A DNA stretch of 64,000 bases, from NCBI GenBank assembly GCA_037447655.1, contig JBBHKE010000040.1:178028-242027 (forward strand), given 5' to 3'. Position 1 is the first letter of the stretch. Each line of letters begins with the position of its first letter. Positions 18,111 to 62,889 of the stretch are shown piece by piece. Both the position numbers and the translations under genes were made by a program. The stretch comes from Zygnema cylindricum. Taxonomy: Eukaryota > Streptophyta > Zygnematophyceae > Zygnematales > Zygnemataceae. The notes beneath the pieces were generated by a model. It did not search any database. It was not told where the DNA came from and saw nothing but the letters and a program-made list of their open reading frames with translations.

Positions 18111-18699
18111 TGCAGCATGCAGACAAGTTATTTTTCAAAACCTTAGAAGCTTGAGAGTAAAATACTAGAATTAAATTTAAGTTAAGTGTCCTCGTCAAAA
18201 GAAGGGATCTGTACATTACCATGACATATTTTTGGAGGCTACACTTAATGTGTGCGTCGTCTAGGAAGGCAATTGAAGACAAAGGAGCATAGGTACATTT
18301 GTACAGGATAAATTTTTGTTAGGACAACAGTTGAAGAAGCAAGCTAATTGTAGAAGGGATGAAGCTTTTTCAGGAAACCATTTGTGAACATCGGAACAAA
18401 AACCGAAAGGTTAAATGAAAGAGCGTAGGAGCGTAGGCTGGAAGAAAGTTGAATGTCATCTTATGATTTTTCATGTGGCATATAATTTGTTTCTGTTTTA
18501 CTTCAATCTTTGTTGAATAATCTGTGATGATATTTTCTCACTATTTTTCCTTGAGAGTTTGCCTTTCTCACCACCCTCACAGGGGTGGCTGCCATCACCA
18601 GAGGGGGAGGCATTACCCACTATCAGGGGAGGGGAAAGGGGAGGGAAAGGAAGAAGGAGAGGGAAAGGGGACTTTGTTGGTAATGCAATATAGTTTACA
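18111..18699. other. Spacer between the K2 pseudogene and the copia element
   Basis: No gene or element recognised. 18605-18675 is G/A-rich and lies just before the truncated copia Gag. A direct copia 5' LTR is not visible here. Confidence 0.6.
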
Positions 18700-18703
18700 A
18701 GTT

Positions 18704-21087: not shown

Positions 21088-21093
21088 CAATCA
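21085..21093 (+). promoter_or_regulatory. Candidate readthrough stop UAG-CAA-UCA
   Basis: The integrase and RT are in the same frame with only this TAG between them. UAG followed by CAA UCA fits the UAG-CAR-YYA context known to allow tobamovirus-type readthrough. The related element at 57.8-62.9 kb has TAG-CAA at the homologous position (60850-60855). Sharing of the stop at the same site argues for a designed element feature rather than chance decay. Readthrough itself is not shown. Confidence 0.55.
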
Positions 21094-22646
21094 CTTACAG
21101 AGAATATGACCGGCGACCCTCAATCTTATGTCGAGGCAAGGAGGTCGACCGATTGGGAGAGTAAGTGGAAACCGGCGTGGGAGAAAGAATTTAAGTCGGT
21201 GGTTGATAATCGAACTTTTGAGGAAGTGAAATTACCGGAGGGGAAAAAGGCGATTGATGCAAAGTGGGTCTTTAAAACCAAAACTGGAGCGTCGGGTGAA
21301 ATAATTAAGTACAAGGCGAGGCTTGTGTGTAAGGGGTTCCAACAACGTGAGGGAATCGATTTTAAGGAGACTTATGCTCCCGTGGTGAAGTTCGACTCAC
21401 TACGGATTATTATTGCAATTGCAGCGATGGGGAAGAAGCACGTCCATCAAATGGACGTTGAGACCGCGTTTTTAAATGGTGAGTTGGAGGAAGAGGTATA
21501 TATGAAGGTACCGGAAGGTGTCTCTCCTTTGAAGGAAGGAAATGTATGGCGTTTGAGAAAATCATTATATGGTTTGAAACAAGCACCACGCACTTGGTAT
21601 TTGAGACTTCATCAAGTGCTTTTGAAGTTTGGATTTGTACGGACTACGTCCGATTGTGGAGTTTACGTGAAAGGTGAAGGAGTTGATCAAATCATCTTTT
21701 CCGTTTATGTGGATGATTTCTTGATAGCATGCGACAAGTTGGAGCGCATTGATGAGTTGAAACGTTACCTTGGTTTACATTTCAAAGTAACGGATCTTGG
21801 AGAGGTACGATATATTTTGGGGATTGAAGTGATACGTGACAAGGAGGGGAACATTAAATTGAGTCAAGCTCAATATTGTAAGGAGATTTTGGAGAGATTC
21901 TGTATGACTGACGCGAAACCGCTTTCTACACCGTTGGATGCAAACCTACACATTCGTAAGTTTGAAGAGGAGGATTCTATCGACGTACCTTATCGAGAGA
22001 CGGTTAGTTCACTTATGTACCTTAGCGTTGGTACTCGTCCAGATATTTCGGCCGCGGTTTCTATCGTTAGCCGTTATTGTCACGAGCCAAAGAAGGCGCA
22101 TTGGGAGGCCGTACGACGTATCTTTCGATACTTGGTTGGTACGATTGATCTTGGACTTTTATTCACTTCTAACAAAAATTCTTTGGAGTGTGTTGGGTAT
22201 TGTGATGCGGATTGGGGCGGCGATTTTGATTCAAGTAAGTCTACGTCAGGATATGCATTTATTTTTGGAGGAGCTGCGATCTCGTGGAGTTCTAGGCTAC
22301 AACCTACGGTTGCGTTAAGTTCCACAGAATCTGAGTATATGGCTGCGTGTCATGCAGCTAAGGCTTCGATTTGGATTAAGGAGATGTTACGTGAGTTAAG
22401 CATTTCTATTGGTTGTATGACGATTTATTCTGACAGCATGAATTCTATGGCGTTGGCGAAAAATCTGTGTTTCACAAGAGGACGAAACACATCAGGATCC
22501 AATGGCATTTTGTAAGAGATTTGGTTACGACGAACGAGATTATATTTTCGTACGTTCCAACAAAAGAGGAGGCGGCTGATTTGTTGACAAAGCCTGCCAC
22601 ACATGATGTGTTTGAGAGGGGGCGACCAAAACTTGGATTATTTTGA
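21088..22646 (+). CDS. Copia reverse transcriptase and RNase H
   Basis: In frame with integrase after the TAG; first Met at 21106. RT core: KARLVCKGFQQREGIDFKET, QMDVETAFLNGELEEEVYM, SLYGLKQAPRTWY and the catalytic YVDD in SVYVDDFLIACD. RNase H: GYCDADWGGDFDSSKSTSGY, LSSTESEYMAA and the Ser-Asp-Ser of IYSDSMNS. A one-base shift near 22465 moves the end into another frame, where HIRIQWHFVRDLV and ADLLTKPATHDVFERGRPK complete the usual copia C-terminus with TGA at 22644-22646. Confidence 0.92.
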
Positions 22647-29868: not shown

Positions 29869-30615
29869 CTGCTCCAAAGCCACTGCCAGTTTACTGATGC
29901 GGTCCATCTCTTCTGCCACTTTCTCCATAGACAGCTCCATTTGGTTATTTTTCAGACACGCAACAGTGAGTCGGGTGAGTCCTTCAATCACATCATTCGG
30001 CCATTCTTTCACACGAGGGTCGAGAAACGCTTTCAGACTATCTTGTGACGTGAAACTTAAAAGCCATTGCTTTGTCAGGATTTGTTTAAGCATCCGGCCA
30101 AAGTCAGAACACGCTAAACTAGACTCGAAGGAGCACGGAAGGTAAACAAACTTGTTGTTGCCATTGTCATCAAAGGCTATTAGGTTAGCTGCTACTGGCA
30201 GACAAAGACCTAGTCTACTAAAGTACAGCGCTGCATCCGCTACTTCGTTTGCTATCCGACAAAAATCCGGCCATCCCAAACCTTGCTCTATCCTATCCGT
30301 TAAGCTACCTCCCTCCCTCCACTCCACCACAATGCTTCTACTGCCTTCACGCCAGCCTATGACCTTCGCCACATGGGGATGCCTAACACTGTGCATCTGC
30401 CATGCCATGGCTGCCACATTGTGGGAAGGATTCAGAGTAAAGACCACCACAGGTGTGCCCTCCAACGTTCCCCTGTAGATAGACGAGAAGTAGAAAGTGG
30501 GTGTGCTTATATCGCAATCGCCATTTTTCGGGGTGGAGTCGACTTGTTCCTGAGAGAGTGTACGGATGCCTCTGAGGCCATCTTCCATCTGCACAGTGGT
30601 GGGGCCCACATGCAC
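29869..30615 (-). CDS. PsK3: catalytically empty kinase-like exon (locus C)
   Basis: Intact phase 0-0 exon of 249 codons between acceptor CTGACAG (before 30615) and donor CAG/GTAAGT. Here the first codon is GTG where PsK1, 5 and 7 have ATG, which supports an internal exon rather than a start. Landmarks: MEDGLRGIRTLSQEQ; YRGTLEGTPVVVFTL with Phe where VAIK has Lys; HPHVAKVIGW; SIVVEWREGGSLTDRI; CRIANEVADAALYFSRLG; LCLPVAANLIAFDD where HRDLKPxNxLL would be; NKFVYLP in place of DFG; FGRMLKQILT; DPRVKEWPNDVIEGLTRLTV then MEKVAEEMDRI. It probably acts, if at all, as a binding or regulatory fold. No kinase exon remains downstream. Confidence 0.85.
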
Positions 30616-30987
30616 CTGTCAGCTGGGTGGGTGGGCGGGGGGGAAGGGAGGGGGAAGGACGGGGGGTGGAGAAGAGATGGAAGGGGCATAATAAATCTAT
30701 TAAGTGTTTATGCAAAGGTACGCAAACTCAAAAAACTGATTTTATCATATCTTATCGTAATACGTTTTGAATTATAATTTGAACTCATATTTTGAAATCA
30801 ATTCATTTGTTTCAAGACCGATCTGAGCTTCCATTTACGAATGTTTTTTGTACGGCAATCACATCTTGTACACAATATTCACACACTAAAGGTACTCGCC
30901 ACGACAACAGCGCAAAGACATCAGACTACTCGGGGTGGGGGTGGGTGGGTTGAGGAGAGGAGCTGGAGGAGAGTGGGCACGCCTGAC
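30616..30987 (-). other. Intron between PsK4 and PsK3
   Basis: Donor GAG AAG/GTCAGG at 30987, acceptor CTGACAG at 30616, both phase 0. The last 45 bases on the coding strand are a C/T tract (30617-30665), the normal-length version of what is hugely expanded at PsK1 and PsK5. Confidence 0.7.
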
Positions 30988-31680
30988 CTTCTCATTGGCT
31001 TTTTGGATAATGTGGGCAATTTTCGCTGGAATTTCCTCCATAGATGGAGGATAAATGCTTCCGCACATGTCAGCCACTTGATCGAGTTCTATCAAAACAG
31101 ATAACACCGTCTTGCGATAGTCGTTGAGATCATCTGCAGAGATAGCATTGAAACGTTTCAAAGGTCCCTTCACCATTTTTTTTTAAAAGCTTCCAAAACT
31201 GCGAGTCGCACTGTCGATTCCACCAGGAACATAGACAAGCTTGAAGGTATTGTGGTCTCTAAACACAAGACTAGACTCTATTTTCACACCGCCACTTTGA
31301 TTGGCCAAATACGCAGCAGCACATGCCACGTCTTGCGCTATCCGACAAACATTCGGCCATAAAAATTCAGTATCCTTCAATAGGAAACTTATTGCTGATC
31401 CTCCCACCACCATAATGTGTCTATATTTTTCACAGCAGCCTATGACCTTTGCCACGTGGGGATGGGTGGCATTGTACATCTGCCATGCCACGTCAGCCAC
31501 ATTGTCATCAGGTCCCAAAGCGTGGACAAACACATGGTTCTTCTCAAAATACCCCCTGTAGACTTCCCATGGCTCCTCACAGAGCTTGTCAGAGCAGCAG
31601 GCGTGTGCCATCTGGTTGAAAGAGAGAGCAGGCAGGCCCCTGAGCACGTCATTTCGGATCCCCTCCCCTCCCCTCCCCTC
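30988..31680 (-). pseudogene. PsK4: kinase-like exon with one in-frame stop (locus C)
   Basis: PsK family frame from about IRNDVLRGLPALS (near 31675) to donor AATGAGAAG/GTCAGG at 30988. Landmarks: VYRGYFEKNHVFVHAL (no VAIK lysine), HPHVAKVIGCCEKYRHIMVV, CRIAQDVACAAAYLANQS, FKLVYVP (no DFG), then FGSF, TAA at 31183-31185, KKMVKGPLKRF, and PPSMEEIPAKIAHII. The TAA is the only break, and the reading frame is kept on both sides. The 5' edge is unclear because it grades into a GGGGA repeat. It is divergent from PsK3 and closest in style to PsK2 (both read VHALGPDDNV or VHVLGPEDNV). Confidence 0.75.
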
Positions 31681-39501: not shown

Positions 39502-39825
39502 TCACAGACTTTCATAGCGAGCCATAACGGGTTCCCTCACTTCCTCCAACTCTTTGTCCACATCAACAGCCATTGTTTCGTTTTCGGTTATTGTCATTTC
39601 CACTACATTCAGCCCCATCTGTAGTTCTGCCTGCTTCTCTTTCTTTTCTTTCATAGTCTGCCCCAAAAGATTAAGATCAACGATAAGGTGTGTGACATCT
39701 TCAAATTTTTGTAAGCTCGCTGATGTCGAAATTTCTTGCTGCAGTTTTGACAGCTTTATTTTTGAAGCACGCTCCTGAATATCCGCCAAATCCTGTCGAA
39801 GCTTCTCTTGTGTGGCAAACAATAT
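39502..39825 (-). CDS. Locus A coiled-coil exon, slightly truncated
   Basis: Third module of the locus A protein: acceptor CTCTCCAG before 39825, phase 0, 107 residues starting ILFATQEKLRQDLADIQE. It is rich in Leu/Glu/Lys heptads (KLSKLQQEISTS, KEKKEKQAELQMGLNVVEM, VDKELEEVREPV) and predicts a long amphipathic helix. TGA at 39502-39504 replaces a codon that is CAA in locus B, removing about 40 residues. The frame downstream is partly conserved, so the stop is recent or tolerated. It probably mediates oligomerisation or partner binding and extends the helix begun at the kinase exon's C-terminus (QLEYLSEESSRLKAELE). The 258-nt intron to the kinase exon has GT-AG ends. Confidence 0.85.
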   Translation of the reverse strand: MLFATQEKLRQDLADIQERASKIKLSKLQQEISTSASLQKFEDVTHLIVDLNLLGQTMKEKKEKQAELQMGLNVVEMTITENETMAVDVDKELEEVREPVMARYESL

Positions 39826-40083
39826 CTGGAGAGCGAAAAGGATAAGATTAGCTTAGACTTCCAGATGAGGAAAACTATTTTGCACCCTATAAATGTTCTT
39901 CCATGTCCGAAAATATTGCCTCCATAGAGGGAAAGAAAATGAATGCTGAACAAAGCAATGCTGATGAGATCCTGCGAAGAGATTATGGTTTTTATGGCTT
40001 ACAACGCAATAAATTCCGTCAGAACACGTAATACTGCTTCCATACTCTTTGACAACCCTCCAGATCTAGAAAAAAGATCTTAC

Positions 40084-41241
40084 CTCGAGCTCGGCCTTCA
40101 ATCTGGAAGATTCCTCAGACAGATATTCTAATTGTTCATCAGTTTCCCTTTCCTTTTCTGCCAGCTGAGAACATTTGCCAAGTTCACCATACTCCAGTGG
40201 GTCAAATTCTCCATGGGTTGAGACGTCTGACTTCTCAAGGTCTTTCTTGCTGGCCAAACGTTCCAGTTCCTCTAAAACAAACAGGAAATCATCAAGCTTT
40301 GGCCGATACTCCCGCTGGCGCTCCAAACATCGAAGCAGAAACCTCACAGTCCCCTGTAGAGCCACTTTGGGCATCGCAGAGCTCCTTGGATCCAATCGTA
40401 AACAGAAAATTTGAACAATATTATTAAAAGCATCAGGATCCTCCTCCCATCGGCCGTCCGGTTGAGCAAGAGACTCTCCACTACTTTGTTTCGTCAAAAT
40501 CTCGACAGTGGTACTATTGTCCACCGAAGATTCCGTTCTCCATTTAAGATTTGCGCTTATTTTCTTTTCATGTTTAGCTAAAAAGTTGTGAACATCTCGG
40601 ATTTGCTTCATCCCTGTCAGCAGTTGCAGAATAATGAGTCCAAGTGCATAGGTGTCCGAATAAGGACCCACAAGTCCAGTTTTTACTGTGTAGGGATCCA
40701 TATAGCCGCAAGTGCCATGCATACCGGACATATTCATCTGGTTGCCCTTGCACAATTTGGCCAAACCCATATCACATATTTTGCTTCTTTTGCCATCATC
40801 GAGAAGAACATTCACCGGTTTTAAGTCTCGATGCACGACTCCTCGACTGTGCATGTATGCGACAGCAGACGCCATTTCTCGACAGATTCGCACTTTGTCC
40901 AACCAAGTCAAGGCACCTCCCGTTTCTTGAAGGTAGTCTTGGAGGCTGCCTCCTGACATGTACTCACTCACTAGACAGGGTCCACTGGGTTCAAAACCAA
41001 TCAAAGACAAGATATGCGGGTGTCGGAGCTTGTGGAGTAGCAAGATTTCTTGTATGAAGTTCTTACTTGCTTTTCCAAGGAGGAGCTTTTTCACGGCTAC
41101 AGCCAATCCCTTGTGATGCCCCTTAAAAACTTCACCAAAACCTCCTTTGCCAATCCTGTTTGAAGGAGAGAAGTTAGCGGTTGCGACTGCAATTTCATCC
41201 AGATTGATGGGCCAAATGTCGTCAGAGAGGGGGCCACCAGC
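40084..41241 (-). CDS. Locus A kinase exon (receptor-like-cytoplasmic/U-box-kinase type), catalytically complete
   Basis: 386 codons, acceptor TTTTGCAG before 41241 and donor GAG/GTAAGA at 40083, both phase 0. The lead-in LDEIAVATANFSPSN is typical of plant RLK/Pelle kinases. Exon residues: glycine loop GKGGFGEV 31-38; lysine of VAVKK 51; helix C Glu 65; hinge SEYMSGGSLQDYL from 92; HRDLKPVN 137-144; metal site DMG 157-159 in place of DFG; GYMDPYT in place of the APE region; YALGLIILQLLTG helix F. A long Ser/Asp-rich insert (about 235-275) precedes helix I (RCLERQREYRPKLDDFL). It is closest in feel to the RLCK IX/plant U-box kinase group. All residues needed for Ser/Thr kinase activity are present. 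A second upstream ATG-containing stretch to 41325 looks intronic because it aligns with indels among loci. Confidence 0.92.
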
Positions 41242-42141
41242 CTGCAAAACGGAGAGCAGAGCAGGCTTTAAGTTTTGACGCCCATACGTCATTTGAACGC
41301 ATGTGGATGGTGGCATTGTATCCAAAGATGATTAAAACTAATGACAAGAAAAAATGAAAACCAGGCAGTGATGGCCGGTAAGCATCGAAAAAATTGATAG
41401 TTTTAAAGGATGCCTAAAGTTTACATATCCTCATCAACCATATAAATCAAATTTTTTTAAAATATAAGGAGCGGAGAGCCAGGGGGAGCGAGGGGAGGAT
41501 ATGCGCAGAGAGAGAAACAAAGAGAGAAAGAGAGAAAAATGGAGGATGATCGAAGTTTGGAACTCAAATTTTGATCAAAAGGAAATATTGAAGAAATTTT
41601 AGACATTAGTAGATGGAGAGAATTGGATAAAATGTGGGGAGTTTGGGAAAATTATGGAAAGAGGGGAGGGAAGGGGGAGGGGGCGGAGGATGGGGAGGAG
41701 GGGGAGGGGGGTGATGAAAATGGATGATAAAGAGGAGGAGGAGGAGGGGAGAGGGAGGAGGGAGGGGAAGGAATGGAAGGGGGTGGCATAGGGATGGATG
41801 AGGGGGGAAGAGGGGAAGGGGGGAAGGGGAAGAAAAGAAGGATGTAATAAGGTAATGGGTTGGACTGCTTTTGTTGGGGAGACAATAAAATGGATTATTC
41901 TCCCTTAAATTTAAGAATATTCCTTTATCCTCCCTCAACTTAAGAATATTCCCTTATCCTCCCTTAACTTAATAGTATTCTCTTAACCTCCTGTAAATTT
42001 CGCAGCACAGGTTCCCACAACTCATTTACCACACAGCACAGCCAGATGCCCGCTATGCCGGCTATGCCCACTAGACTGCAGGAGGGACAGGGAGGGCAGA
42101 GACAGAGAGGGAGACACAGAGAGATATAGAGGATTCAACAC
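41242..42141 (-). other. Intron between PsK5 and the locus A kinase
   Basis: Donor GACAAGCAG/GTGTTG (GT at 42141-42140), acceptor TTTTGCAG. On the plus strand it holds a G/A tract (41640-41840), three minisatellite units (41885-41998) and the conserved post-PsK block (42000-42141). Its sequence relationship to 455-838 shows that the loci share this intron by descent. Confidence 0.75.
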
Positions 42142-42867
42142 CTGCTTGTCTGCTATTTCACTGATGTGGACCATTTCCTGTACCACCTCCTCTATGAACT
42201 TTTTGATGTCACGTACATCACGTTGGAAACATTCTGCAGCGAGTCGAGTGAATCTTTCCATCACATCCTTCGGCCATTCTTTCACTCGAGGGTCGAGACT
42301 CGCTTTCAAGTCAGCTTGTGACGTGACATGCTCGTCCAACAATGGTTCCATCAGCATTTCTCTCAGGATCTTGCCAAAATATAAAATAAAACCATTGTTT
42401 GGTCCATCGGCCAAAACAACAAACTTGCAGTTGTCTTCATGATCCAAAAATATTACTTCACTTCCCATCATCACCGGTCCAAGGCCCCGTCCTATATGTG
42501 CTACTTGGTTTGCTATCAGACAGCAATCCAGCCAATCCAAACCTTGCTTTATCCTATCCTTCCCCTCCATCACAATGCTTCCACTGTCTTCACGCCAGCC
42601 TATGATCTTCGCCATGTGGGGATGGTTGAAATTGTGAATCTGCCATGCTATGGGTTTATAAAATATAAATTGAAAATGGTTTAAAGATGTCAGACCAAGG
42701 ACCACCACGGGTGCTCCCTCGAACGTCCCTCTATAGGCAGAGATGTACGGATTGTACGGCAATAAATCGGGACTGCCTCGTCGCGCCTCGTGTATTTCTT
42801 TCTGCGAGAGTGTACGGATGCCTCTGAGGCCATCTTTCATCTGCACAGTGGTGGGCCCCACATGCAT
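42142..42867 (-). CDS. PsK5: catalytically empty kinase-like exon (locus A)
   Basis: Intact phase 0-0 exon of 242 codons, acceptor CTGACAG to donor CAG/GTGTTG. Landmarks: MKDGLRGIRTLSQKE; YRGTFEGAPVVVLGL (Leu where the ATP lysine belongs); HPHMAKIIGWREDSGSIVME; CLIANQVAHI; FGKILREMLMEPLLDEHVTS; DPRVKEWPKDVMERFTRLAA; EEVVQEMVHISEIADKQ. Compared with PsK3 it lacks the GGSLTD segment after the hinge (EGKDRIKQGL) and has about ten extra residues near SLNHFQFIFYKP. No HRD or DFG. Joined in frame to the kinase exon at 41241 it would give an N-terminal pseudokinase plus kinase plus coiled-coil protein of about 740 residues, not counting any upstream exon. Confidence 0.85.
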
Positions 42868-43235
42868 CTGTCAGCTGGGTGGGAGGGTTGGGGAGGGGGG
42901 AAATGGAGAGGGGGAAAGGGGGGGGGGGAAGGGGGAGAAGGGGGGGGGGGGGGGGGGGGGGGGGAGAGGGGGGGGAGAAGGGAGGAAACGCGGGGGGAGG
43001 AGGGAAAGGTGATAGCGGGTGAGGGAGGGAGGGAGAGTGAGACAGTGAGGGAGAGGAAGGGAGAGGAAGGGAGAGGGAGATGACGAGAGAGAGGGAGAGA
43101 TAGAATCAAGCAGAAGGTTCCAAGGGAGTCAAATTTTGATTCTCTTATATCGCAGAATTCTTTCAGAAATTTGAAAATCAGTTTTGACAAATGGCGTCAT
43201 ATTTTCACAACTTTTTGTGACAACCTTAACTGGAT
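42868..43235. repeat. G-rich tract before PsK5
   Basis: Plus-strand G/A to about 43100 with a G run near 42935-42963. On the coding strand it is the C/T tract leading into CCCAGCTGACAG at the PsK5 acceptor. 43100-43235 is AT-rich spacer between PsK6 and the tract. Confidence 0.8.
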
Positions 43236-43454
43236 TTAAAATAGGTTTAAATCTATTCTGACGTCATCAATTTGGGTGGCCAAATCCGCAGCAGCAGATG
43301 CCACCGCCCTCGCTATCCGACAAAAATGTTGCCATAGCAGTGACCAATGTGTCATTAGGATCTGTCGGTTTCCTCCCTTCCCCCCCTCCACCACAATGCT
43401 TCCCCTGTCTTCCCACCAGCCTATGACCTTCGCCACGTGGCGATGGCTGACACT
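43236..43454 (-). pseudogene. PsK6: fragment of a kinase-like exon (locus A)
   Basis: Retains SVSHRHVAKVIGWWEDRGSI through CRIARAVASAAADLATQ to VRIDLNLF, then stops at 43236. The N-lobe strands and the whole C-lobe after helix E are missing. The 5' edge can be read as a splice acceptor ACACATGCAG, phase 0, joining in frame to the small exon at 43519-43614 across a 64-nt G-rich stretch. It could be a broken tandem copy of PsK5, skipped in splicing. Confidence 0.65.
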
Positions 43455-43518
43455 CTGCATGTGTGCATGTGATCCTCTCCCCCTCCCTCCCTCCCCCCCT
43501 CCCCTCCACACCCCTCAC

Positions 43519-43614
43519 CTGCCCTCCGCTCTTCTCCGTGCGCCACTTCCACTCCATGAGGGCCACGGCGACTGAATCCCTTATCACGACTTTGGACACC
43601 GTATTCGTTTCCAT
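43519..43614 (-). CDS. Possible first exon of locus A
   Basis: ATG at 43614 opens 32 codons (beginning METNTVSKVVIRDSVA) ending at donor GGGCAG/GTGAGGGG, phase 0 like the rest of the gene. About 30 nt upstream is TATAATAC, a plausible TATA box, in a box shared with locus C. There is no recognised domain; VVIRDSVAVALMEW may be a worn N-lobe strand. It could be the real start of the locus A protein, with PsK6 or PsK5 as the next exon. Confidence 0.4.
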
Positions 43615-46639: not shown

Positions 46640-46888
46640 AAATAAACTGCAGCACTTCCGCTTCAATATTTGGAACGAGAGTCGAAATATCGGCCTCATC
46701 TCGAAGTCTTCTTGTTTGCCTTAGAGCCCCAAGGTTTGGTTCAAAAGTCAAACATGTGCCTTCATGGAAACCCTAACCCTCTGCAGTCCATGGAATATGA
46801 AGACAAAAAATGCCGTCCAGTTGACAGCACAGGAAAGAAAAAGATGGCAAAAGACAAAAGTATTTTTGGAGAAATATGCCAGACATAA
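46640..46888 (+). pseudogene. Relic of a kinase C-terminus on the plus strand
   Basis: ERESKYRPHLEVFLFALEPQ aligns with LERQWEYRPNLNVLLFALEE of locus B and the equivalent in locus A, followed by a worn linker (GLVQKSN...) matching GLASKEDLEQSN. Nothing upstream of helix I is recognisable. It is opposite in orientation to loci A and B and points toward locus B's 3' end. Confidence 0.65.
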
Positions 46889-48703: not shown

Positions 48704-49144
48704 CTAGAACTTATTTGCTTTCTCATTTGCTGCTGTGGCCTCCTTCGCTAAGGACAACACCTTCTCCAGGTCACTTCCCTTCAATGCGGTCTCAATTTCT
48801 TGTTGTTTTTCCAAAGCCTGTGCTTGCAGACTCTCATAGAGGGGTTCCTTCACTTTCTCTAAAGCTTTGTCCACATCTACAGCCATCGTTTTGTTTTCTA
48901 CTATTTTCATTTCCAGTGCATTCAGCTTCACTTGTAGTTCTGCCTCCATCTCTTTCTCTTCCTTAATAGCCTGCCCCAAAAGCTTCCAATCATCGCAAAG
49001 GCGCGTGAGGTCTTCAAATTTTCCTAAGCTCGCTGCTGTCGACATTTCTTGCTGCAGTTCTGACAGCTTTATTTTTGAAGTTTCCGCATTTTCCTGAACA
49101 TCCGCCAAATCCTGACGAAGCTTATCCTGTGCGACAACCAGTAT
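48704..49144 (-). CDS. Locus B coiled-coil exon, full length
   Basis: Acceptor GCTTTCCAG before 49144, phase 0, 146 residues to TAA. Begins ILVVAQDKLRQDLADVQE; Leu/Glu/Lys/Gln-rich throughout (LSELQQEMSTAAS, KEEKEMEAELQVKLNALEM, LEKQQEIETALKG). It ends ATAANEKANKF and is a long predicted coiled coil. It represents the intact form of the exon that is truncated in locus A. The 258-nt intron before it matches that of locus A in length and ends. Confidence 0.88.
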   Translation of the reverse strand: MLVVAQDKLRQDLADVQENAETSKIKLSELQQEMSTAASLGKFEDLTRLCDDWKLLGQAIKEEKEMEAELQVKLNALEMKIVENKTMAVDVDKALEKVKEPLYESLQAQALEKQQEIETALKGSDLEKVLSLAKEATAANEKANKF

Positions 49145-49402: not shown

Positions 49403-50575
49403 CTCGAGCTCGGCCATCAATCTGGAAAATTCCTCGGACAAACATTTTAATCGTTCATCAGTTTCCTTTTCCTCTTCTGGCAACTGAAAAGATTTTCCAT
49501 ATGTACCAGACTGGAGGCTGCCAAATGTTTTATGGGTTGAGAAGTTTGACTGCTCAAGGTCTTCTTTGCTGGCCAAACCTTCCAGCTCCTCTAAGGCAAA
49601 CAGTAAGACATTGAGATTGGGCCGATATTCCCACTGGCGCTCCAAACATCGAAGCAGAAACCCCACAATCTTGTGTAAAGGCGCTTTGGCCATCCCAGAG
49701 CTCCTTGGATCCAATTTTAAACAGAAATGTTCAACAATATTACTGAAAGCGTCAGGATCCTCCTCCCATCGGCTCCTCGATGGAGTGACAAATGACTCTC
49801 CACTTCCTGTGCTGCTGCTACTTTGTTTCGTCAAAATCATAGTGGTACTATCTTCCATGACAGATTGAACGCTCAATTTAAAATAATTGTATGTTTGCTT
49901 TTCATGTTTACCTAAAAAGTTGTGAACATCTCGGATATGCTTCGTCCCTGTCAGCAGTTGCAGAATAATGAGTCCAAGTGCATAGGTGTCCGAATAAGGA
50001 CCCACAAGTCCAGTTTTTACTGTGTAGGGATCCATATAGCCGTGAGTTCCCTGGATACCACAAATATTCACCTGGTTCCCCTCACACAATTTGGCCAAAC
50101 CCATGTCACATATTTTGCTTCTTTTAACATCATCGAGAAGAACATTCACCGGTTTCAAGTCTTGATGCACCACTCCTCGACTGTGCAAGTATGTGACAGC
50201 AGACGCCATTTCTCGACAGATTCGCACTTTGTCCTCCCAAGTCAAGGCACCTCCTGTTTCTTGAAGGTAGTCTTGGAGGCTGCCTCTTGACATGTACTCA
50301 CTCACTAGACAGGGTCCACTGGGTTCAAAACCAATCAAAGACAGGATATGCGGGTGCCTTAGCCTGTTGAGAAACAGGATTTCTTGTTCGAAGTTGTTAC
50401 TTGCTTTTCCAAGGAGGAGCTTTTTCACGGCTATAGCCATTCCCTGGTGACGCCCCTTAAAAACTTCACCAAAGCCTCCTTTCCCTATCCTGTTGGAAGA
50501 AGAGAAGTTGGCAGTTGCGACTGCAATTTCTTTTGCAGAGATGAGCCAAATGTCGTCAGAGAAGGCGCCACAAAT
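49403..50575 (-). CDS. Locus B kinase exon (receptor-like-cytoplasmic type), HRD changed to HQD
   Basis: 391 codons, acceptor CTGTTGCAG before 50575 and donor GAG/GTACGA, phase 0 at both ends. Glycine loop GKGGFGEV, lysine in IAVKK, helix C Glu in FEQEIL, GSLQDYL, catalytic loop VVHQDLKPVN, DMG, GYMDPYT, YALGLIILQLLTG. The HRD arginine is Gln, so this is a non-RD kinase; the catalytic Asp and Lys are kept. A Ser/Thr-rich linker (KQSSSSTGSGES) lies before helix I. The C-terminus RLKCLSEEFSRLMAELE leads into the coiled-coil exon. Non-RD kinases are common among plant immune receptors, a suggestive but weak hint. Very similar to the locus A exon. Confidence 0.92.
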
Positions 50576-51620: not shown

Positions 51621-52343
51621 CTGCTTCGCTGCCATTTTACTGATGGAATCCAAATCTTCAACCACTTTCTCCATGGGTGTGACATCATTTTCCAAACACG
51701 CAGCTGTTAGTCGAGTGAGTTCTTCAATCACATCCTTCGGCCATTCTCTCACACGAGGGTCGAGATTCAATTTTAAAACAACTTGTGACGTGACATTTTT
51801 ATCCAACAATGGTCCCATCAGCATTTCTCTCAGTAGTGTGCCAAATAGATAACACCCAAATCAGAATCCTAAAGAAGATGGAAGGTAAACAAGCTTGATG
51901 TTGTCGTATTTATCAAAATCTATTATTTCAGATTCTATTCGTACACCGATACCTCGTGTTCTGAGATAAGTCACTGCGTGCGCCACTTGGTTTGCTATCC
52001 GACAGCAATCCTTCCAACCCAATCCTTGCCTTATCCTATCCTTTAAGCTCCCTCCCTCTACTCCCTCCACCACAATGCTTCTACTGTCTTCGCACCAGCC
52101 TATGAACTTCGCCACGTGGGGATGGTCGACGCTTTGCATCTGCCACACCATGCCTGTCAAATTGTGGCACGGTTGCAAAACAAGGACAAGCACGGGTGTT
52201 CCCTGTAATGTCCCCTTGTAGGCAGACCACTGAGAAGGATAACAAGTTAACATTTCGCGATTGTTTGATACTTGGCTCAAAGAGATTCTACGAAGGCTTC
52301 TGAGGCTATCTTCCATCTGCACAGTGTTGAACCCCACATGCAT
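51621..52343 (-). pseudogene. PsK7: kinase-like exon with one in-frame stop (locus B)
   Basis: 241-codon phase 0-0 exon, acceptor CTGACAG to donor CAG/GTGAGG, broken only by TGA at 51861-51863. Landmarks: MEDSLRSLRRISLSQ; YKGTLQGTPVLVLVL (no lysine); HPHVAKFIGWCEDSRSIVVE; GGSLKDRI; CRIANQVAHAVTYLRTRGI; VRIESEIIDFDK for the HRD region; IKLVYLPSSLGF, stop, FGCYLFGTLLREMLMGPLLD; DPRVREWPKDVIEELTRLTA; MEKVVEDLDSISKMAAKQ. The stop lies just before helix F. If translated, the locus B product would end inside the pseudokinase unless the exon is skipped, the stop is read through or the base is wrong. Confidence 0.85.
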
Positions 52344-52629: not shown

Positions 52630-52890
52630 CTGCTTTGCTTCCATGTTACTGACGCGGTCCAAATCTTTTACCACTTTCTCCACGGCTGTGGTGTCAAGAA
52701 TCAAACAGGCGACAGTTAGTTGAGTGAGTTCTTCAATCACATCCTTCGGCCATTCTTTCACACGAGGGTCGAGATTCGCTTTCAGATCAGCTTGTGACGT
52801 GACATATTCATCCAACACTTGTCCCGACAACATTTCTGTTAGCATCCTGCCAAAAAAGAACCACTCGAGCCTGAATCCTGAAGAAGTTGA
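52630..52890 (-). pseudogene. PsK8: C-lobe remnant of a kinase-like exon, cut by a copia LTR
   Basis: 87 codons from STSSGFRLEWFFFGRMLTEM to NMEAKQ then GTAAGG. The C-lobe signature DPRVKEWPKDVIEELTQLTV and the final helix are intact. The N-terminal two-thirds are replaced at 52891 by the copia 5' LTR and are not found beyond 62889. It shows that locus B once had two complete PsK exons in tandem. Confidence 0.85.
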
Positions 52891-53397
52891 TGTTAGAGTC
52901 AAAATGGTAATCGGTCGTCGCGGCCTATCGCGCGACCAAATAGTTTTAGTTTGTCTTTTGTTGTCAAGCGTGCGGTCTTGTTCTTGTCTTTTATGTCTCG
53001 TAGTTTGTTTTGAAGATTCCCGGTCTCGCGTAGATTCTGTTTCGCGACGACCAGGTACAGATATTATTTGGTATGTAAGGTTTGTCGTTATATGGTTTTG
53101 TGTGTACCTTTGGGTAGTACGTTAGTACTACGTAGTTTTGTGTTGATTTGTTTGTTTGGTCTTATTTAGTGCGCACTATAATTTAGTCTTAGTTTATAGT
53201 TTGAAGTTGTGACATGACGCCTAATGTATTCTATATACTGCAGATTAATGGGAGGTAAAAGATACACTGATTATAGGGGAAAAACGTTCATGAAATATAT
53301 TGGCTTTTATGGACTGTCCTCTCTTGTGTGAATTTTTTTATTTATTCTTGATGCTTCTGCTGTTGTTTTAAGCACTGTGAGTTATTAGATCCTATCA
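52891..53397 (+). mobile_element. Copia 5' LTR
   Basis: Begins TGTTAGAGTCAAAATGGTAA and ends AGATCCTATCA, 507 bp. It aligns throughout with the LTR at 62433-62889 with visible substitutions and indels. Flanking bases GTTGA are not repeated after 62889 (GCTCT), so the two LTRs are not the ends of one simple insertion. Confidence 0.88.
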
Positions 53398-53399
53398 AG

Positions 53400-53411
53400 T
53401 GGTATCGGAGC
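53400..53411 (+). other. Primer-binding site, initiator tRNA-Met
   Basis: TGGTATCGGAGC two bases after the LTR. It differs at one base from the plant copia consensus TGGTATCAGAGC complementary to the 3' end of initiator tRNA-Met. Confidence 0.88.
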
Positions 53412-53456
53412 TTGTGTGCTCCCTTGAGGTGTAGAAGTGTGGCTAGTTTGGTCGAT

Positions 53457-55926
53457 ATGGGGAGAAAAAAGAAAAATACCCCTACTCAAATGATGCCTTC
53501 TTCTTCTACGATGATTCCTCGACCTCCGGATCCGGATCCTCCTGATCCAACCGAATCCGAATCATCGTCGGATCCGGAAGTAGAAACTCCATTTGCCTTC
53601 ACCGGCAAAACTTTTGAGGAAGCCGTTCCGATTGATCCGTTCGGACAAAAAAATGAGAATGAGGAGAAAAAGAAGGAGGAAGATGACGCGATGGGAGATC
53701 GTCTACAACAAATGATAGATGGTCTTTTCCGTTATGTTGATCAACGGATCTCGGATTCGAACCGTGTCACTAAACCTCTATTTTTCGGAAATCCCATTCC
53801 GACACATAGCGTCGCCGATACGGAAGGAGATGAAGTAGATGAAAAAGAGAGGAGGGAATTAATTCGAAAAGGAAAACTTCCCATTGATGATGATTCTGAT
53901 CTTGATGATTGGAGTGAAGGAGATGAGCATGTTGAATCTATGTCCGGAAAGATCGTCATCTTCAATGGAACGAACTATCAATCATGGAAGGAATATATCA
54001 AAGGTCAATTTAAATTGAAGCGACTTTGGAAGGTGGTAAAAGGGGTGGACAAGATGCCTACGTCGGATCGGAGAGCTTATCGCGTATGGACAAAGAAAAA
54101 TCTTTCCGCCGTCGGCGGTTTATTTCAATCATGTAGCACTTCCATACATGATTTATTTCTCACTCGAAGATTCGCCCATGATTGTTGGGTAGCCCTTGAA
54201 AATCATTTTGAGAAGAGTCTTCAAAATAAAGGACAACACATTTATACCGACTATACATCCTTCAAGGTGAAACCGAACGAATCTATCGATGAGGCCGCAA
54301 AAAGATTTAATATCATTATTGAGCAACTCGCAAATATGGGAAAATTTATTGAGGAGAATGATAAGGCATCGGTCTTCACCCATGCTCTACCAGAGAAAAT
54401 GATGCACTTAAGGGATATTCTCTTATCGAGGGATTCGAATACCTTGGATTCAATTATTACATTCCTCAAATCTACTGAAGCAAATCGTCCTAGCTCATCG
54501 AGGGGAACTCAACCGACCGGTTCCCTCAACGCGACGACACCGGAAACGCCCGATCTAAATTATTTTCGGGGAAGAGGAGGTAGAAGAGAAGGAAATCCGA
54601 GAGGAAGAGGTGGAAGAGGACACGAAAGGGCCGGGAGATCACCCTCTCAGCCCGGATATTCAGATCTGACCAATATTGTCTGCTTTCAGTGTGGCAAACT
54701 TGGTCATATGGCGGCCTCTTGTCCGGACAAGGAGCGCCAATGCCATTTTTGCGGGAAATGGGGCCATATAAGCCCCCAATGTTATTCAAAGCCTGAAAAT
54801 GGAAGCGCCGGCGGTAGAGGAGGCGGCGGCGGTAGAGGAGGCGGCGGCGGTAGAGGAGGCGGCGGCGGCCGATACACTCGTCGCGGCGGCGGTCGTCTCG
54901 GCGGCCGCGGTGGTCGCGAAGGCCGCCATGGAAGGGGAGGAGGACATTACCTTGGTGACGAGCATTTTGAAGGGGAAGGAGAAGGACCGCAAATATTTTC
55001 GGTCCTTAACCTGTCGCGCAATTTTTTAGCAGGCGCTACAGGACAAGAAAAGGACTGGATAATCGATTCGGGAGCGTCGCATCACGTATGTACGGACGCG
55101 TCACTTTTCTATGACCTACGGCAACTCACGGTACCGAAAAAAATTACTGTCGCAAGTGGACAGATAATTTCAATCGGTACAGTGGGTACTGTACGGATTG
55201 ACTTACCTATTTTGGACTCACGCGAAGTGGAAAAACTGACGCAGGTTGAACTAACAAATGTTTTATTTTTACCCGAAGGTTCAGTGAACCTTCTTAGCGT
55301 ACCTCAAATTCAACGAACAGGTTGCAGCGTACTTTCGTACGGAGATTCAACAATTAAAATTGTACGACCGGATGGTGTCCAAATCGGCGAAGGGGAGGTC
55401 ACGGAGTTTATGCACAGTCGTTTATTTTGGCGTCGGCCTAAATCCTTCCCAATTTCCGCTAGTATTATTTCACAAATATTTGATTTAAAAAGCGACTTGA
55501 CATTATGGCACCATCGGATGTGTCACACATCCGAGGCGAGTTTGCGACGAATGATAAAAAATGGGAGCGTAAGGGGACTGGATTTGGCGTCGAGAGAGAA
55601 AATTAACGTGTGCGAGGGATGTAGTAAGGGAAGACAAATTCGAAAGCCACATCCGGCTAAGGATCTGATGCATCGATCTAAGCATCCGCTTGATCTTGTG
55701 CATATTGATTTATGTGGGGACGTTAAACCGGAGACGATTGGAGGAAACAAATATATTATGGTGGTGGTGGACGATTTTTCTCGATTCACATGGGTAATAT
55801 TACTCAAACACAAATCCGAAGCATTTATACGCTTTCAAGAGTGGCATGTTATGGTCGAAAGACAATGTGAGAGAAAATTAAAATCCATAAGATCGGATAA
55901 TGGAGGGGAGTTTCTTGCTTTTGATC
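53457..55926 (+). CDS. Copia Gag-protease-integrase, intact up to an assembly gap
   Basis: ATG at 53457 (MGRKKKNTPTQ) opens a single frame of 823 codons up to the gap at 55927. Gag: Pro/Glu/Asp-rich N-terminus, then the UBN2-type core (FNGTNYQSWKEYIKGQFKLK, HIYTDYTSFKVKPNESIDE), an RGG-rich segment, two CCHC knuckles (CFQCGKLGHMAASC, CHFCGKWGHISPQC) and a (RGGGGG)n stretch. Protease WIIDSGASHHVC. Integrase begins LWHHRMCHTSEASL with Asp in HIDLCG and Asp in SDNGGEF just before the Ns. No lesion is present in what is visible, so this is the youngest copia copy here. The residues after the gap belong to other DNA. Confidence 0.92.
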
Positions 55927-55936
55927 NNNNNNNNNN
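55927..55936. other. Assembly gap (10 N)
   Basis: Ten N bases in the middle of the integrase. Sequence on the right does not continue the element, so the true gap is larger than ten bases or the join is wrong. Confidence 0.97.
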
Positions 55937-57591
55937 TCCTGAGAGAGAGGGTGTCTGCCAGAAACTGGTAGGTATTGAATGACGAGTCCCCTCGTTTAAG
56001 TTTCTAAGAAAAACGATAGCTCAGTCCCCTCAGAACGGAAATATCCCCACTTCCACCAATTTCAAAAACAGACGGTTCCACCGTCAATAATAACGACATT
56101 GTGTTTCCCCAGTCCCAATAGGATCTCCGAAGAACCTTCGACATGAAAGATTCCTGAATATCTCCAGAGTCTCAAAGTCCAATACCCGGGTGGGAGACTT
56201 AATGGACGCCCCATTCGTCTACTCACTATCCCCCAAAACCTTTTCTGGCATAGAGCTCCTATCATCATACTTTACCAGTATATGAAGCTCGTTCCATTAA
56301 AGATGGGTATCCTAGAGGGTGGGCCCATAACCTGAAACTCTGAGACCTCTATAAGTCCTTAGAAAGTACAGCTTCCAAGAAGCCTCTAGGATAACCCTGA
56401 CCCCTTTGTGTTACAGCAATAATAACTGCCACCTTGGCAGACAAAAACTTTAACCACCTTCACCCCTATAAAGGCAAGACTCCCCTGACTCGATAGCAAA
56501 AAGAATCTTTGAATTTGCTCCCCTGAGCAGTAAGTTATGGATGGTCAAAGACCGTCTGTGGGAGAGAGAGTCCTATCTACCAATTTTTTCTAAGTCATAT
56601 CTCTCTCACAAACTCTATCTACTAACGTACGGACCAATCATATTACTCTTCCGTACACAAAAGTACAGTTGTCGGTGTACTTTCTGTACGGATAATGCAC
56701 CACATGCCTAAATAATGGCTCGTGGTATATCCGGATTTGCTCCGTTAATCCTTGGAGATGCCGCGATCCAACATTATTCTGCCACGTGTCATCCGATGTG
56801 GCATTGACCATAAACCGCCGAAATCCTCTTCCGCGATCTCGACATTCATTCCGGCCGTCCGATTAAATGCACATTTAATCGTAGCCGTAATAAATACCTG
56901 CGCGGTATTCGATTTGTTATCGAAACAAATGCGCGGTACTTGTTTCATATCCGTATCGTAATCCGTACTTCTTCGTAACTGAACCTATGTATTCCGTAAG
57001 CAGTTTCCGTTAAATGAAATATCCTACATGGTAACGTTTTAAGAATTATAAAACCCCGTAGCATATATCGATAGTTCTAGACCTAACGGATAACGCTACC
57101 GTCTACCAGTTGTCTGCCGGCCGGCAGGTACCAGGATCAAATCCTGGTTGCATCAATATTTCTTTTAGTAAATAAACTACCATTCAATAAATCAACTAAT
57201 TCATTTCCCGTAAACCTCTGGATAGCCTAGGTAGCCATGGCTCTAACTTCCTCTCCAATTTCTCAGTGACTGCGACAAGTGTGGGAGTTGGAGAGAGAAG
57301 TTAGAGATAGACTGCCTCGACTTCTTTCTATTAAGACCTAGAAAATACTTAAAAGAGAACCTTCAATTTCTACAACTTCCTCTCGTGGTGCTAACGGATT
57401 GTCAGTGGGTGCAATTGGCTAACAGAAGTTCTCTATCCATTACTCATCGTACTCTGAGGTTACACGTCAGAATTGGGAAGTTCCACTGGTTTGACACTCT
57501 TCATGTATTTCTGCTTGGAGACCATGAAGTAATCTAGGGGAAACCTTGGCTGCAAAAGTGGAACCCGAGGATCGATTGGAGAAGTGGCGAC
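55937..57591. other. Unassigned DNA between two copia copies
   Basis: No similarity to the copia element. 56630-57060 has GTACGG and ATCCGTA words and could be an LTR of another element. A minus-strand frame at 56062-56268 is unrecognised. 57071-57154 is tRNA-like. It may belong to a Ty3/gypsy copy whose protein remnant lies at 57592. Confidence 0.4.
57071..57154 (+). tRNA. tRNA-like sequence, degenerate (pseudo-tRNA or SINE head)
   Basis: A-box-like TAGACCTAACGGATAACGC, similar to the D-arm of plant tRNA-Arg genes, and a T-arm CCAGG-ATCAAAT-CCTGG with perfect 5-bp stem and 7-base loop 53 bases later. The acceptor arms do not pair and no clean anticodon arm is visible; a perfect palindrome CTGCCGGCCGGCAG lies between. 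Not a working tRNA. Confidence 0.35.
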
Positions 57592-57797
57592 ATGAGAGTT
57601 AGGAAAGGTGAAAAAGAGTTTGAGGTAAAGGTGGGAGCTGCTGGTACGGGATCGGAAGAGGGACGGCTGCTTTCGGCCTTACAGCTTAAGAGGGCACTGA
57701 GGAAGGGGGAGACAATTGGTATGGCGGTCGTCCAACCTATGGAGGAAGGGAAGGAGGGGATTTTGAAAGAATGGAGTAAGAAGGACCCCAAAAATTA
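57592..57797 (+). pseudogene. Probable Ty3/gypsy polyprotein fragment
   Basis: Open 68-codon frame. LLSALQLKRALRKGETIGMA resembles the segment between protease and reverse transcriptase of gypsy polyproteins, where a Ser-Ala-x-Gln-x-x-Arg pattern is followed by a basic helix. It ends exactly where the second copia copy starts. Weak call; no catalytic motif is present. Confidence 0.35.
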
Positions 57798-60700
57798 ATG
57801 GATGGTCTTTTCCATTATGTCGATCAACGGATCTCAAAGTCGAACCGTGTCACAAGACCTCCATTTTTCAGAGATCCCATTCCGACACAAAGCGTCGTTG
57901 ATACGGAAGGAGATAAAGTAGATGAAGAGGAGAGGAGGGAATTAATTCGAATGGGGAAACTTCCCATTGATGATGATTCTGATCTTGATGATTGGAGTGA
58001 AGGAGATGAGCATGTTGAATCTATGTCCAGAAAGATCGTCATCTTCAATGGAACGAATTATCAATCATGGAAGAAATATATCAAAGGTCAATTTAAATTG
58101 AAGCGACATTGGAAGGTGGTAAAAGGGGTGGACAAGATGCCTACCTCGGATCAAAGAGCTTATCGGGTATGGACGAAGAAAAATCTTTCCGCCGTCGGCG
58201 GTTTATTTCAATCGTGTAGCACTTCGATTCACGATTTATTTCTTACCCGAAGATTCGCCCATGATTGTTGGGTAGCCCTTGAAAATCATTTTGAGAAGAG
58301 TCTTCAAAATAAGGGACAACACATTTATACCGACTATACATCCTTCAAGGTGAAACCGAACGAATCTATCGATGAGGCTGCAAAAAGAGTTAATATCATT
58401 ATCGTGCAACTCGCAAATATGGGAAAATTAATTGAGGAAAATGATAAGGCATCGGTCTTTACCCATGCTCTACCGGAGAAAATGATACATTTAAGGGATA
58501 TTCTCTTATCAAGGGATTCGAATACTTTGGATTCAATTATTACATTCCTCAAATCTACCGAAGCAAATCGTCCTAGCTCGTCGAGGGGAACTCAACCGAC
58601 CGGTTCCCTCAATGCGATGACATCGGAAACGCCCGATCTAAATTATCTTCGGGGAAGAGGAGGTAGGAGAGGAGGAAATCCAAGAGGAAGAGGTGGAAGA
58701 GGACACGAAAGGGTCAAGAGATCGCCCTCTCAGCCCGGATAGTCAGATCTGACCAATAATGTCTGATTTCAGTGCGACAAACTTGGTCATATGGCGGCCT
58801 CTTGTCCGGACAAGGAGTGTCAATGCCATTTTTGCGGGAAATGGGGCCCTATAAGCCCCCAATGTTATTCGAAGCCAGAAAATAGAAGAGTCGGCGGTAG
58901 AAGCGGCGGCGGCGGCGGTAGAGGAGATGGCGGCGGCAGGTACAGTGGTCGCGGCGGCGGTCGTTTCGGCGGCCGCGGCGGTCGCGGAGGTCGCCATGGA
59001 AGGGGTGGAGGACATTTCTTTGGAGACGAACATTTTGAAAGGGATAATGAAATACCGCAAATATTTTCGGTCCTTAACCTGTCGTGCGATTTGTTGGCAA
59101 GTACTACAGGACAAGAAAAGGACTGGATAATTGATTCGGGAGCGTCGCATCACGTATGTACAGACGCGTCCCTCTTCTATGACCTACGGCAACTCACGGT
59201 ACCGGAAAAAATTATTGTCGCAAGTGGACAGATAATTTCAATCAATACAGTGGGCAGTGTACGAATTGACTTACCTATGTTGGACTCATGCGACGTGGAA
59301 AAACTGGCGCAAGTCGAACTAACAAATGTTTTACAATTACCCGAAGGTTGAGTGAACCTTCTTAGCGTACCTCAAATTCAACGGACAGGTTGTAGCGTAC
59401 TTTCGTACAAAGATTCAACAATTAAAATTGTACGACCAAATGGTGTACAAATTGGCGAAGGGGATGTCACGAAATTTATGCACAGTCGGTTATTTTGGCG
59501 TCGGCCTAAATCCTCCCCAAATTCCGCCGGTATTATTTCACAAATATCCGATTTAAAGGGCGATTTGACATTGTGGCACTATCGGATGTGTCACACATCC
59601 GATGCGAGTTAACGACGAATGATAAAAAATGGGAGCGTAAGGGGATTAGACTTGGCGTCGGGAGAGAAAATTAACGGGTGTGAGGGATGTAGTAAGGGGA
59701 GACAAATTCGCAAGCCACATCCGGCTAAAGATCCAATGCATCGATCTAGGCATCCGCTTGATCTTGTGCATATTGATTTATGTGGGACGTTAAACCCGAG
59801 ACGATTGGAGGAAACAATTATATTATGGTGGTGGTGGACAATTTCTCTCGATTCACATGGGTAATATTGCTTAAACACAAATCCGAAGCATTTTTACGCT
59901 TTCAAGAGTGGCATGTGATAGCCGAAAGGCAATGTGAGAGAAAATTAAAATCTATAAGATCGGATAATGGAGGGGAATTTCTTGCTTTTGATCCTTATTG
60001 TAAAGAGTGCGGAATCTCTCATCAATATACCGTATCTTACTCACCTGAATCTAATGGCATTGCCGAGAGGAAAAATCGTACGCTTCAAGAAATGGTACGA
60101 TCCATGGTACACGGATCCGAGAGGATCATTCATTTATGGGGCGATGCAATTTTAACGGCGAATTATATTTGCAATCGGAGGGTTACATCGGTTTCGGGTG
60201 ATAAAACTCCGTATGAGTTGTGGTATGGGCGAAAGCCTACCTTACACCACATTCGGATTTGGGGATGTCGTGCGTCGGTTCGCAAAAGAGAAAGGGTAAG
60301 TTTGCATCAAGGAGTTGGAGTGGTTATTTCGTTGGATATAGCGAGAAAAGAAGCCTTTATCCTGTTTATGATCCGATTCGAAATATCATTGAGGAATCGA
60401 GGAATGTGGATTTTCACGAGGACTTATTATCCACAATCTCTCGATCGGCTAAGCGACATTCGAACCTTAAATTCCATGAAGAATTTGATATTGGTGACCT
60501 TAATGACATTGAAGGTTCGGATTCAGAAATTGAGCCGGAATCCACCTCCAATGTTAAGAGGGGGAAAGGTATATTTGTGGAGAATGAAAGTTTTGGTAAC
60601 ATTGGTGGGGATTCGCGAAGCGAAAATTCCCGAATGTCTTTGGACACGAGGAAATCTTTGTCTTCTAAATCAAGTGAACCATATTCTATTGAAGAGGAAC

Positions 60701-62432: not shown

Positions 62433-62889
62433 TGTTTGAAACAAAAATGTAATCGGTCGTCGCGGTCTGTCGCGCGACCAAGTAGTTCGTCGTTTAGTCA
62501 CACCTGTGGTCCTGATTCTGTTTGATTGTTTCGCATGGTCTCGCGTAGATTCGGTTTCGCGACGACAAGGTACAGATATTGTTTGGTGTGTAAGGTTTGT
62601 CGCTATTTGGTTTCGTGTGTACTTTTCGGTAGTACATTAGTACTACGTAGTTTTGTGTTGATTTGTTTGTTTGGTTTTGTTTTGTGCGCACTATAATGTT
62701 GTCTTAGTTTATTGTTTGAAGTAGTGACATAACGCTTGATGTATACTATATACTGCAGAGTAGTGGGAGGGAAAAAAAACACACTGTATGGGAGAAAAAC
62801 GTTCTTCAAATATATTGGCTTTTATGGACTGTCCTCTCTTGTGTGAAAATATTGGTTAATGCTTCCGCTGAATTGTTAAGATCCTATTA
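62433..62889 (+). mobile_element. Copia 3' LTR
   Basis: Follows the polypurine tract GAGAGGGGGGAT. Begins TGTTTGAAACAAAAATGTAA and ends AGATCCTATTA, so its last dinucleotide is worn from CA to TA. It is 457 bp, about 50 bp shorter than the LTR at 52891 through internal deletions. Confidence 0.85.

Follow-up and report, generated by a model that had tools for sequence, protein, structure and literature searches.

What kind of gene lies between 39.5 and 43.7 kb of a 64,000-nucleotide stretch of the Zygnema cylindricum genome (JBBHKE010000040.1:178,028-242,027, hereafter the window)? A first-pass annotation read there a catalytically empty kinase-like domain, a kinase and a coiled coil, and proposed a new class of tandem kinase protein (TKP). 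TKPs are important and mechanistically open plant immune receptors, best known in cereals and mostly built of two kinase folds. We searched the same assembly (352.8 Mb, 2689 contigs) for pseudokinase modules (PsK, of two types, A and B), kinase exons (K) and coiled-coil exons (CC), placing exon ends by splice-like sites in the DNA. The results point to a clustered gene family whose members would carry one to at least four PsKs of two main types, one apparently working K and a CC. A stronger point, which lay beyond the reach of the first-pass annotation, is the existence of arrays of two PsK types.

The arrangement described for locus A, with PsK, K and CC on one strand and in one phase, agrees with the coordinates in Table 1 and with the PsK-K and K-CC junctions, which are phase 0 and have ordinary splice sites (for the K exon, acceptor TTTTGCAG and donor GAG/GTAAGA, the slash marking the junction). 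Locus B repeats this order, as had been claimed, with an in-frame TGA in its PsK. The CC of locus A meets a TGA at the point where the frame of locus B continues. Furthermore, the frame that contains the partial PsK upstream of locus B starts (approximately 52900-53118, minus strand) like the stretch at 62442-62633 (minus strand; 53% over 73 columns); because that stretch lies beside a retroelement, a retroelement edge may have cut the upstream PsK. Loci A and B are probably worn members of a larger gene family; the window copies may be relics, and other parts of the genome are a better place to look for working genes.

Table 1 Kinase-family modules and retroelement-like stretches in the window (positions count from the first letter of the window).
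Feature	Positions	Strand	Remarks
Lone B-type PsK module	1397-2086	-	end without phase-0 donor-like site
Putative retroelement frame	4439-5230	-	
Putative retroelement frame	10956-11819	-	
Locus 2 PsK (PsK2)	15529-16230	+	basal in B clade; possible ATG at 15529; donor GCA/GTGAGC
Locus 2 kinase relic (K2)	17145-18011	+	HHG, GIG; stop at 17721-17723
Copia-type coding regions	18521-22512	+	several broken frames
B-type PsK exon (PsK4)	29869-30588	-	stop-free; source of structure model
A-type PsK module	30991-31653	-	in-frame stop; downstream K not found within the window
Locus A CC exon	39502-39825	-	C-terminal; TGA end, earlier than in locus B
Locus A K exon (RLK/Pelle-type)	40084-41241	-	386 codons; GKGGFG, VAVK, HRD, DMG; without APE Glu
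Locus A B-type PsK exon (PsK5)	42142-42840	-	donor CAG/GTGTTG, phase 0
Partial A-type PsK upstream of locus A	43242-43463	-	positions 57-130 of 224 of the hidden Markov model (HMM)
K C-lobe remnant	46661-46804	+	21 bits
Locus B CC exon	48704-49144	-	C-terminal; long helices in AlphaFold2
Locus B K exon	49403-50575	-	HQD in place of HRD; DMG
Locus B B-type PsK exon	51621-52316	-	in-frame TGA at 51861-51863
Partial B-type PsK (C-terminal half) upstream of locus B	52642-52884	-	
Copia-type coding regions	53352-62204	+	several broken frames

Is PsK a kinase fold? Taken alone, PsK5 (42025-42870) had zero Pfam matches even at E ≤ 1, and its kinship to kinases appears through its relatives. PF07714 matched the N-terminal part of the locus B PsK (E = 2.8e-8) and, at E ≤ 0.01, 17 of 24 aligned PsK modules, and a profile-profile comparison of PsK with K gave E = 3.8e-17 over 231 columns. 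Against the PDB, the PsK profile matched plant receptor-like kinases (RLKs) and IRAK4 best. Plant pseudokinases were among the matches (DRIK1, 1.7e-11; NFR5, 1.4e-10; BSK8, 8e-9; RKS1, 2.8e-6), active kinases scored similarly, and TYK2 was among the weaker matches. Structure prediction, named beforehand as one way to refute the proposal, did not refute it and returned a kinase-like fold, with BSK8 and DRIK1 among the fold matches. Profile matches, PsK-K comparison and predicted fold together rule out chance similarity. The VAIK Lys, HRD Asp and DFG Asp are each kept in none of the 36 PsK modules used for residue counts (whose stop-free state comes partly from choosing open frames), and the description of PsK as a catalytically empty kinase fold therefore holds.

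Phylogenetic analysis placed the PsKs in one group against K (support 100/100). They separated into two main clades, A with 13 rows (100/100) and B with 21 rows (99/95); the modules L025 and L014 are basal. L025 reads VAVH at the catalytic-lysine site, which suggests that the lysine was lost before the split of A and B. When eight other kinases of the genome were included, PsK formed one side of a branch and the eight did likewise, K did not. A derivation of PsK from a K-like domain fits this tree weakly, given its long branches.

K matched Pfam Pkinase at 1.7e-43, and its best PDB sequence matches were a plant lectin-type kinase, LysM receptor kinases and IRAK4; these matches and its features indicate an RLK/Pelle-type kinase. 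Its catalytic residues are kept (Lys 22/23, HRD Asp 22/23, DFG Asp 20/23). The word "complete" in the first-pass annotation calls for a qualification, since locus B has HQD for HRD and the Glu equivalent to that of APE is absent from all 23 K. This absence and the reading DMG for DFG (Met in 21/23) are unusual in an otherwise active-looking kinase. In NCBIfam, which is prokaryote-oriented, K had only general kinase matches below the cut-off and PsK had none. Two regions, L022 (C1098:34514-37608) and L024, carry two related K exons in series on the same strand, with no PsK between them, possibly a kinase-kinase tandem. Among mapped modules, 19-residue hydropathy exceeded 1.6 in 3 of 36 PsK, 1 of 23 K and 0 of 14 CC.

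For CC, AlphaFold2 predicted helices at residues 2-40, 43-122 and 126-144 (mean predicted local distance difference test score 90.3, two sequences). CC exons had no Pfam match above the cut-off and no PDB match at E ≤ 0.001, and the candidate of a known domain was dropped on these searches. Similarity between copies extends past CC, and four downstream stretches have stops in all three frames; this part resembles a 3' untranslated region, and CC seems to be the last exon. From its predicted helices, CC looks like an oligomerising or docking part.

To see how the modules are combined, we mapped 20 kinase regions (L009-L028), hand-picked from 146 matches by K-like exon size and thus not a random sample. 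Three were added afterwards: L034 has a PsK, L033 has none in approximately 5.6 kb, and in L035 the contig end was reached. The order A-B-A-B-K was found in five genes (L016, L017, L013, L021, and L023), three of which have a CC match (L017, L013, and L021), and the arrays of L013, L016, and L017 are stop-free. Shorter arrays read A-B-K-CC (L018 and L026), A-K-CC (L011), and B-K-CC (L014), and seven module segments were found on C1480 (L031 and L010). In the tree, the A1, A2, and B2 modules of L013 each paired with those of L023 (100/99), B1 did not; the four-module gene thus probably predates the split of these two loci. As modules are mostly separate phase-0 exons, copies can be gained or lost with the frame intact. 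Of the 48 PsK segments mapped beyond the window, 46 share the strand of the nearest K and stand upstream of it; the remaining two are fragments in L022.

The genome-wide counts agree with this order. Queries gave at least 151 PsK matches (150 of 202 candidates scored), at least 121 K matches (107 of 482), and 40 CC matches (51 of 51), and the linkage count took in 121/121 K, 40/40 CC, and 117/151 PsK (E < 1e-10). Five PsKs overlapping K were dropped, leaving 112 among the matches listed, on 28 contigs. For 93 of these, a listed K or CC lies no more than 10 kb away; it is downstream on the same strand for 78, a number reached in 0 of 1000 trials with random PsK strands. The counts are lower bounds, and K matches outside the listing make some PsK and CC seem unlinked. 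Chains (gaps < 5 kb) with PsK and K or CC numbered 32; all PsKs precede the first K or CC in 28, and the other four (C1080, C1808, C2131, and C271) look like two successive genes.

Such linkage could also arise if PsK, K, and CC were separate adjacent genes or fragments that spread together by local duplication. The copies are clustered with retroelements among them, K-less PsKs occur in the window (29.9-31.7 and 1.4-2.1 kb), 19 of the 112 PsKs are more than 10 kb from any listed K or CC, and an ATG often lies near the start of B-type exons. We nevertheless consider separate genes improbable. Two PsKs share one stop-free frame with almost no spacer in L013 (5096-6655) and L023 (2618-4096), and C2131:14140-14859 and 13606-14136 adjoin, each with a 492-residue open frame among the PsK matches listed. 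At homologous splice positions, AG precedes 24/24 K exons and CAG precedes 14/14 CC exons, GT stands at all K ends extending to HMM position 424 (14/14), and a phase-0 donor-like site was found at 32 of 38 module ends in a scan with the B profile (the other six being two fused frames, the window module at 1.4 kb, L014, L025, and one C1480 module). In the open frame, 7 of 23 K exons have no ATG ahead of the glycine loop. The acceptors of internal A modules are rich in pyrimidines (15-17/20) in both C1080 genes and in C1098. The first A modules of the five A-B-A-B genes differ: their listed acceptor candidates have at most 4-13 pyrimidines, and an in-frame ATG lies 15-26 residues upstream. A duplicated gene on C1080 also shows similar synonymous divergence (dS) across its five domains (0.10-0.14). 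Shared PsK frames, conserved phase-0 junctions, and ATG-less K exons favour a single gene, in which PsK, K, and CC exons would be joined in one RNA. As to where PsK exons begin, we rejected the MHVGPTTVQ stretch before MEDGLRGIRTLS as coding, because an AG/ATGGAAGAT acceptor approximately 27 bases inward fits better. In the B1 modules of C1080 the CAG nearer that stretch is replaced by CAA, and exon starts are accordingly placed at the inner acceptor as the probable one.

Selection bears on whether these genes are in use. The median ratio of nonsynonymous to synonymous substitution rates (omega) was 0.68 for PsK (548 pairs), 0.44 for K (142), and 0.53 for CC (76), the pairs being non-independent; the fast divergence of PsK claimed at first is thus borne out against K. 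For the C1080 duplicate, omega was 0.35 for A1, 0.55 for B1, 0.36 for A2, 0.33 for B2, and 0.35 for K, and 0.40 (0.29-0.55) for the four PsKs pooled. Within PsK, the most constrained stretch was residues 71-110 (end of alpha-C, beta4, beta5, hinge, and start of alpha-D), with a ratio of nonsynonymous to synonymous differences (pN/pS) of 0.40-0.54, and the least constrained was the former catalytic loop (1.09). This pattern suggests that the PsKs are in use, not as enzymes, and are diversifying beyond K. It could be argued instead that the family is mostly decaying, so that working genes are few and relics, such as the window copies, are many, and that PsK divergence is lost constraint. Locus A, locus B, and K2 carry stops or truncation, omega is near 1 for many of the older PsK pairs, and 15 of the 117 listed PsK matches (E < 1e-10) contain stops, as counted by eye. 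General decay seems unlikely to us, given the three stop-free arrays, the purifying selection in the recent duplicate, and the catalytic residues kept in K.

How much of this plan is new? Two elements of the order that was unfamiliar to the first-pass annotation already occur in the papers cited here. RPG1 is tabulated as HMA-pseudokinase-kinase (PMC12835825), so the order of pseudokinase and kinase is itself known (PMC8956640, PMC12835825), and a C-terminal addition to a tandem kinase exists as the vWA part of Pm57 and Lr9 (PMC11153570). Rpg1, a barley protein that confers stem rust resistance, resembles the family, known from DNA order, in placing a pseudokinase N-terminal to the kinase; it differs in having two kinase folds against up to four pseudokinases of two types, and the text available mentions no C-terminal coiled coil. 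Its one-pseudokinase-one-kinase plan occurs in few of our loci (e.g., L014) and in none of the five A-B-A-B-K genes. Pm57 and Lr9 likewise follow tandem kinase folds with a C-terminal non-kinase part, but the part is vWA rather than helical, the kinase precedes the pseudokinase, and there are two kinase folds (PMC11153570). WTK1/Yr15, Sr62, and Pm24 share tandem kinase folds with a catalytically depleted pseudokinase (PMC6170490), Yr15 and Pm24 having the reverse order, kinase-pseudokinase. In the same paper, 175 of 184 TKP domains are RLK-related, TKPs have no extracellular or transmembrane part and arose several times by duplication or fusion, additional conserved domains occur in 0 of 92 TKPs, and Janus kinases (JAKs) are named as a parallel. 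PMC8956640 names six cloned TKP genes, each with two kinase domains; in its methods, splitting into either two or three domains is mentioned. As in TKPs, the family combines a kinase bearing catalytic residues with a pseudokinase, both RLK/Pelle-type by their profile matches; locus 2 of the window falls short in its K. We found no comparable pseudokinase array in the literature searched, which did not cover the main 2025 TKP survey (Nat Genet).

What might the array do? We put at roughly 0.6 the whole statement that the array senses or regulates, K signals, and CC assembles, higher for the architecture and lower for immunity. One gene would give a cytosolic-looking protein with a short N-terminus, a PsK array (A-B-A-B being the commonest long form), K, and a helical CC. 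PsK surfaces may bind something variable (a partner kinase, or an effector of a pathogen) or may keep K inactive; binding would free K to signal, and CC may gather the proteins, allowing K to act in trans. A sensing role, with immunity as the likeliest setting, is favoured by the clustering of the modules and by their rapid change next to a K that is better conserved.

JAKs, in which a pseudokinase stands directly ahead of the kinase, offer another model, in which the array folds back on K, holds it off, and tunes its response to a host partner, with array length setting the strength and no foreign molecule sensed. PsK lies directly N-terminal to K, as in JAKs and Rpg1, the constrained residues 71-110 could be a shared contact or merely the fold core, and DRIK1, NFR5, BSK8, and RKS1, which the PsK profile matches, act as regulators or adaptors. 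In the deposited structures these four are single pseudokinase domains rather than fused arrays; the DRIK1 alignment contains residues, after the former DFG and before helix F, that PsK lacks. The family departs from JAKs (FERM-SH2-pseudokinase-tyrosine kinase) as well: K resembles plant RLKs and IRAK4, not tyrosine kinases, there are several pseudokinases, and a Pfam scan of PsK and K modules, with upstream exons partly mapped, found no FERM or SH2 match. Two module types, variable copy number, and paralogue divergence are not obviously needed by a fixed internal regulator, and we regard a purely internal role as rather doubtful.

Several observations weigh against a sensing or regulating array in a single gene. 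In L016 and L023, the sequence after K gave no CC match. The A-B-A-B genes L021 (C1098) and L023 (C815) have one stop each in K and are, like locus A, locus B, and K2, broken copies. Some arrays deviate (B-B-K-CC in L012, A-B-B-K in L027, and A-A inside C1480). Among the 22 K regions with enough upstream sequence, five lack a same-strand upstream PsK (L019, L020, L022, L024, and L033), and L009 has only a PsK fragment approximately 7 kb away; K-CC may therefore also work alone. Among the other PsKs of the 112, 10 have their nearest K or CC upstream on the same strand and 5 have it on the other strand; 11 lie more than 10 kb from any listed one, and 8 are on contigs that have none. The omega interval of C1080 B1 reaches 1.01, the joining of exons is predicted from DNA, and nothing links the family to immunity directly; its role in sensing or defence is putative.

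The rest of the window adds further copies. PsK2-K2 had been described as a repeat of the arrangement on the other strand; PsK does precede K there, but K2 has lost both its motifs and its frame, and the locus yielded no CC. The A-B pair at 29869-31653 (minus strand), with no downstream K in the window, is either a PsK-only gene or one whose kinase was lost. Copia-type long terminal repeat retroelement coding regions (gag, integrase, or RVT_2) sit between and beside the kinase loci. The retroelements and the introns of the window mark its DNA as eukaryotic. One of the two related minus-strand frames has a Tf2-1-like SH3 domain (PF24626), which we take to mark the integrase end of a Ty3-type element. 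An Rfam scan of the window gave zero matches. In prokaryote genomes and viral contigs, 66 and 33 pattern-matched stretches were found, and tblastn confirmed none.

The family would show the lengthening of tandem kinases by exon duplication, and its one-, two-, and four-module series is a natural test set for the effect of a pseudokinase module on a kinase. More tentatively, and at less than even odds, typically alternating A and B phase-0 exons may form a stackable sensor of varying length and surface, carried by dozens of clustered genes with one K type and CC: a poly-pseudokinase receptor repertoire, evolved independently as a counterpart of cereal tandem-kinase immunity, in which each A-B pair would bait a different effector. 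If its host is a streptophyte alga, the family bears on the age of the tandem-kinase design, or on the number of its re-inventions.

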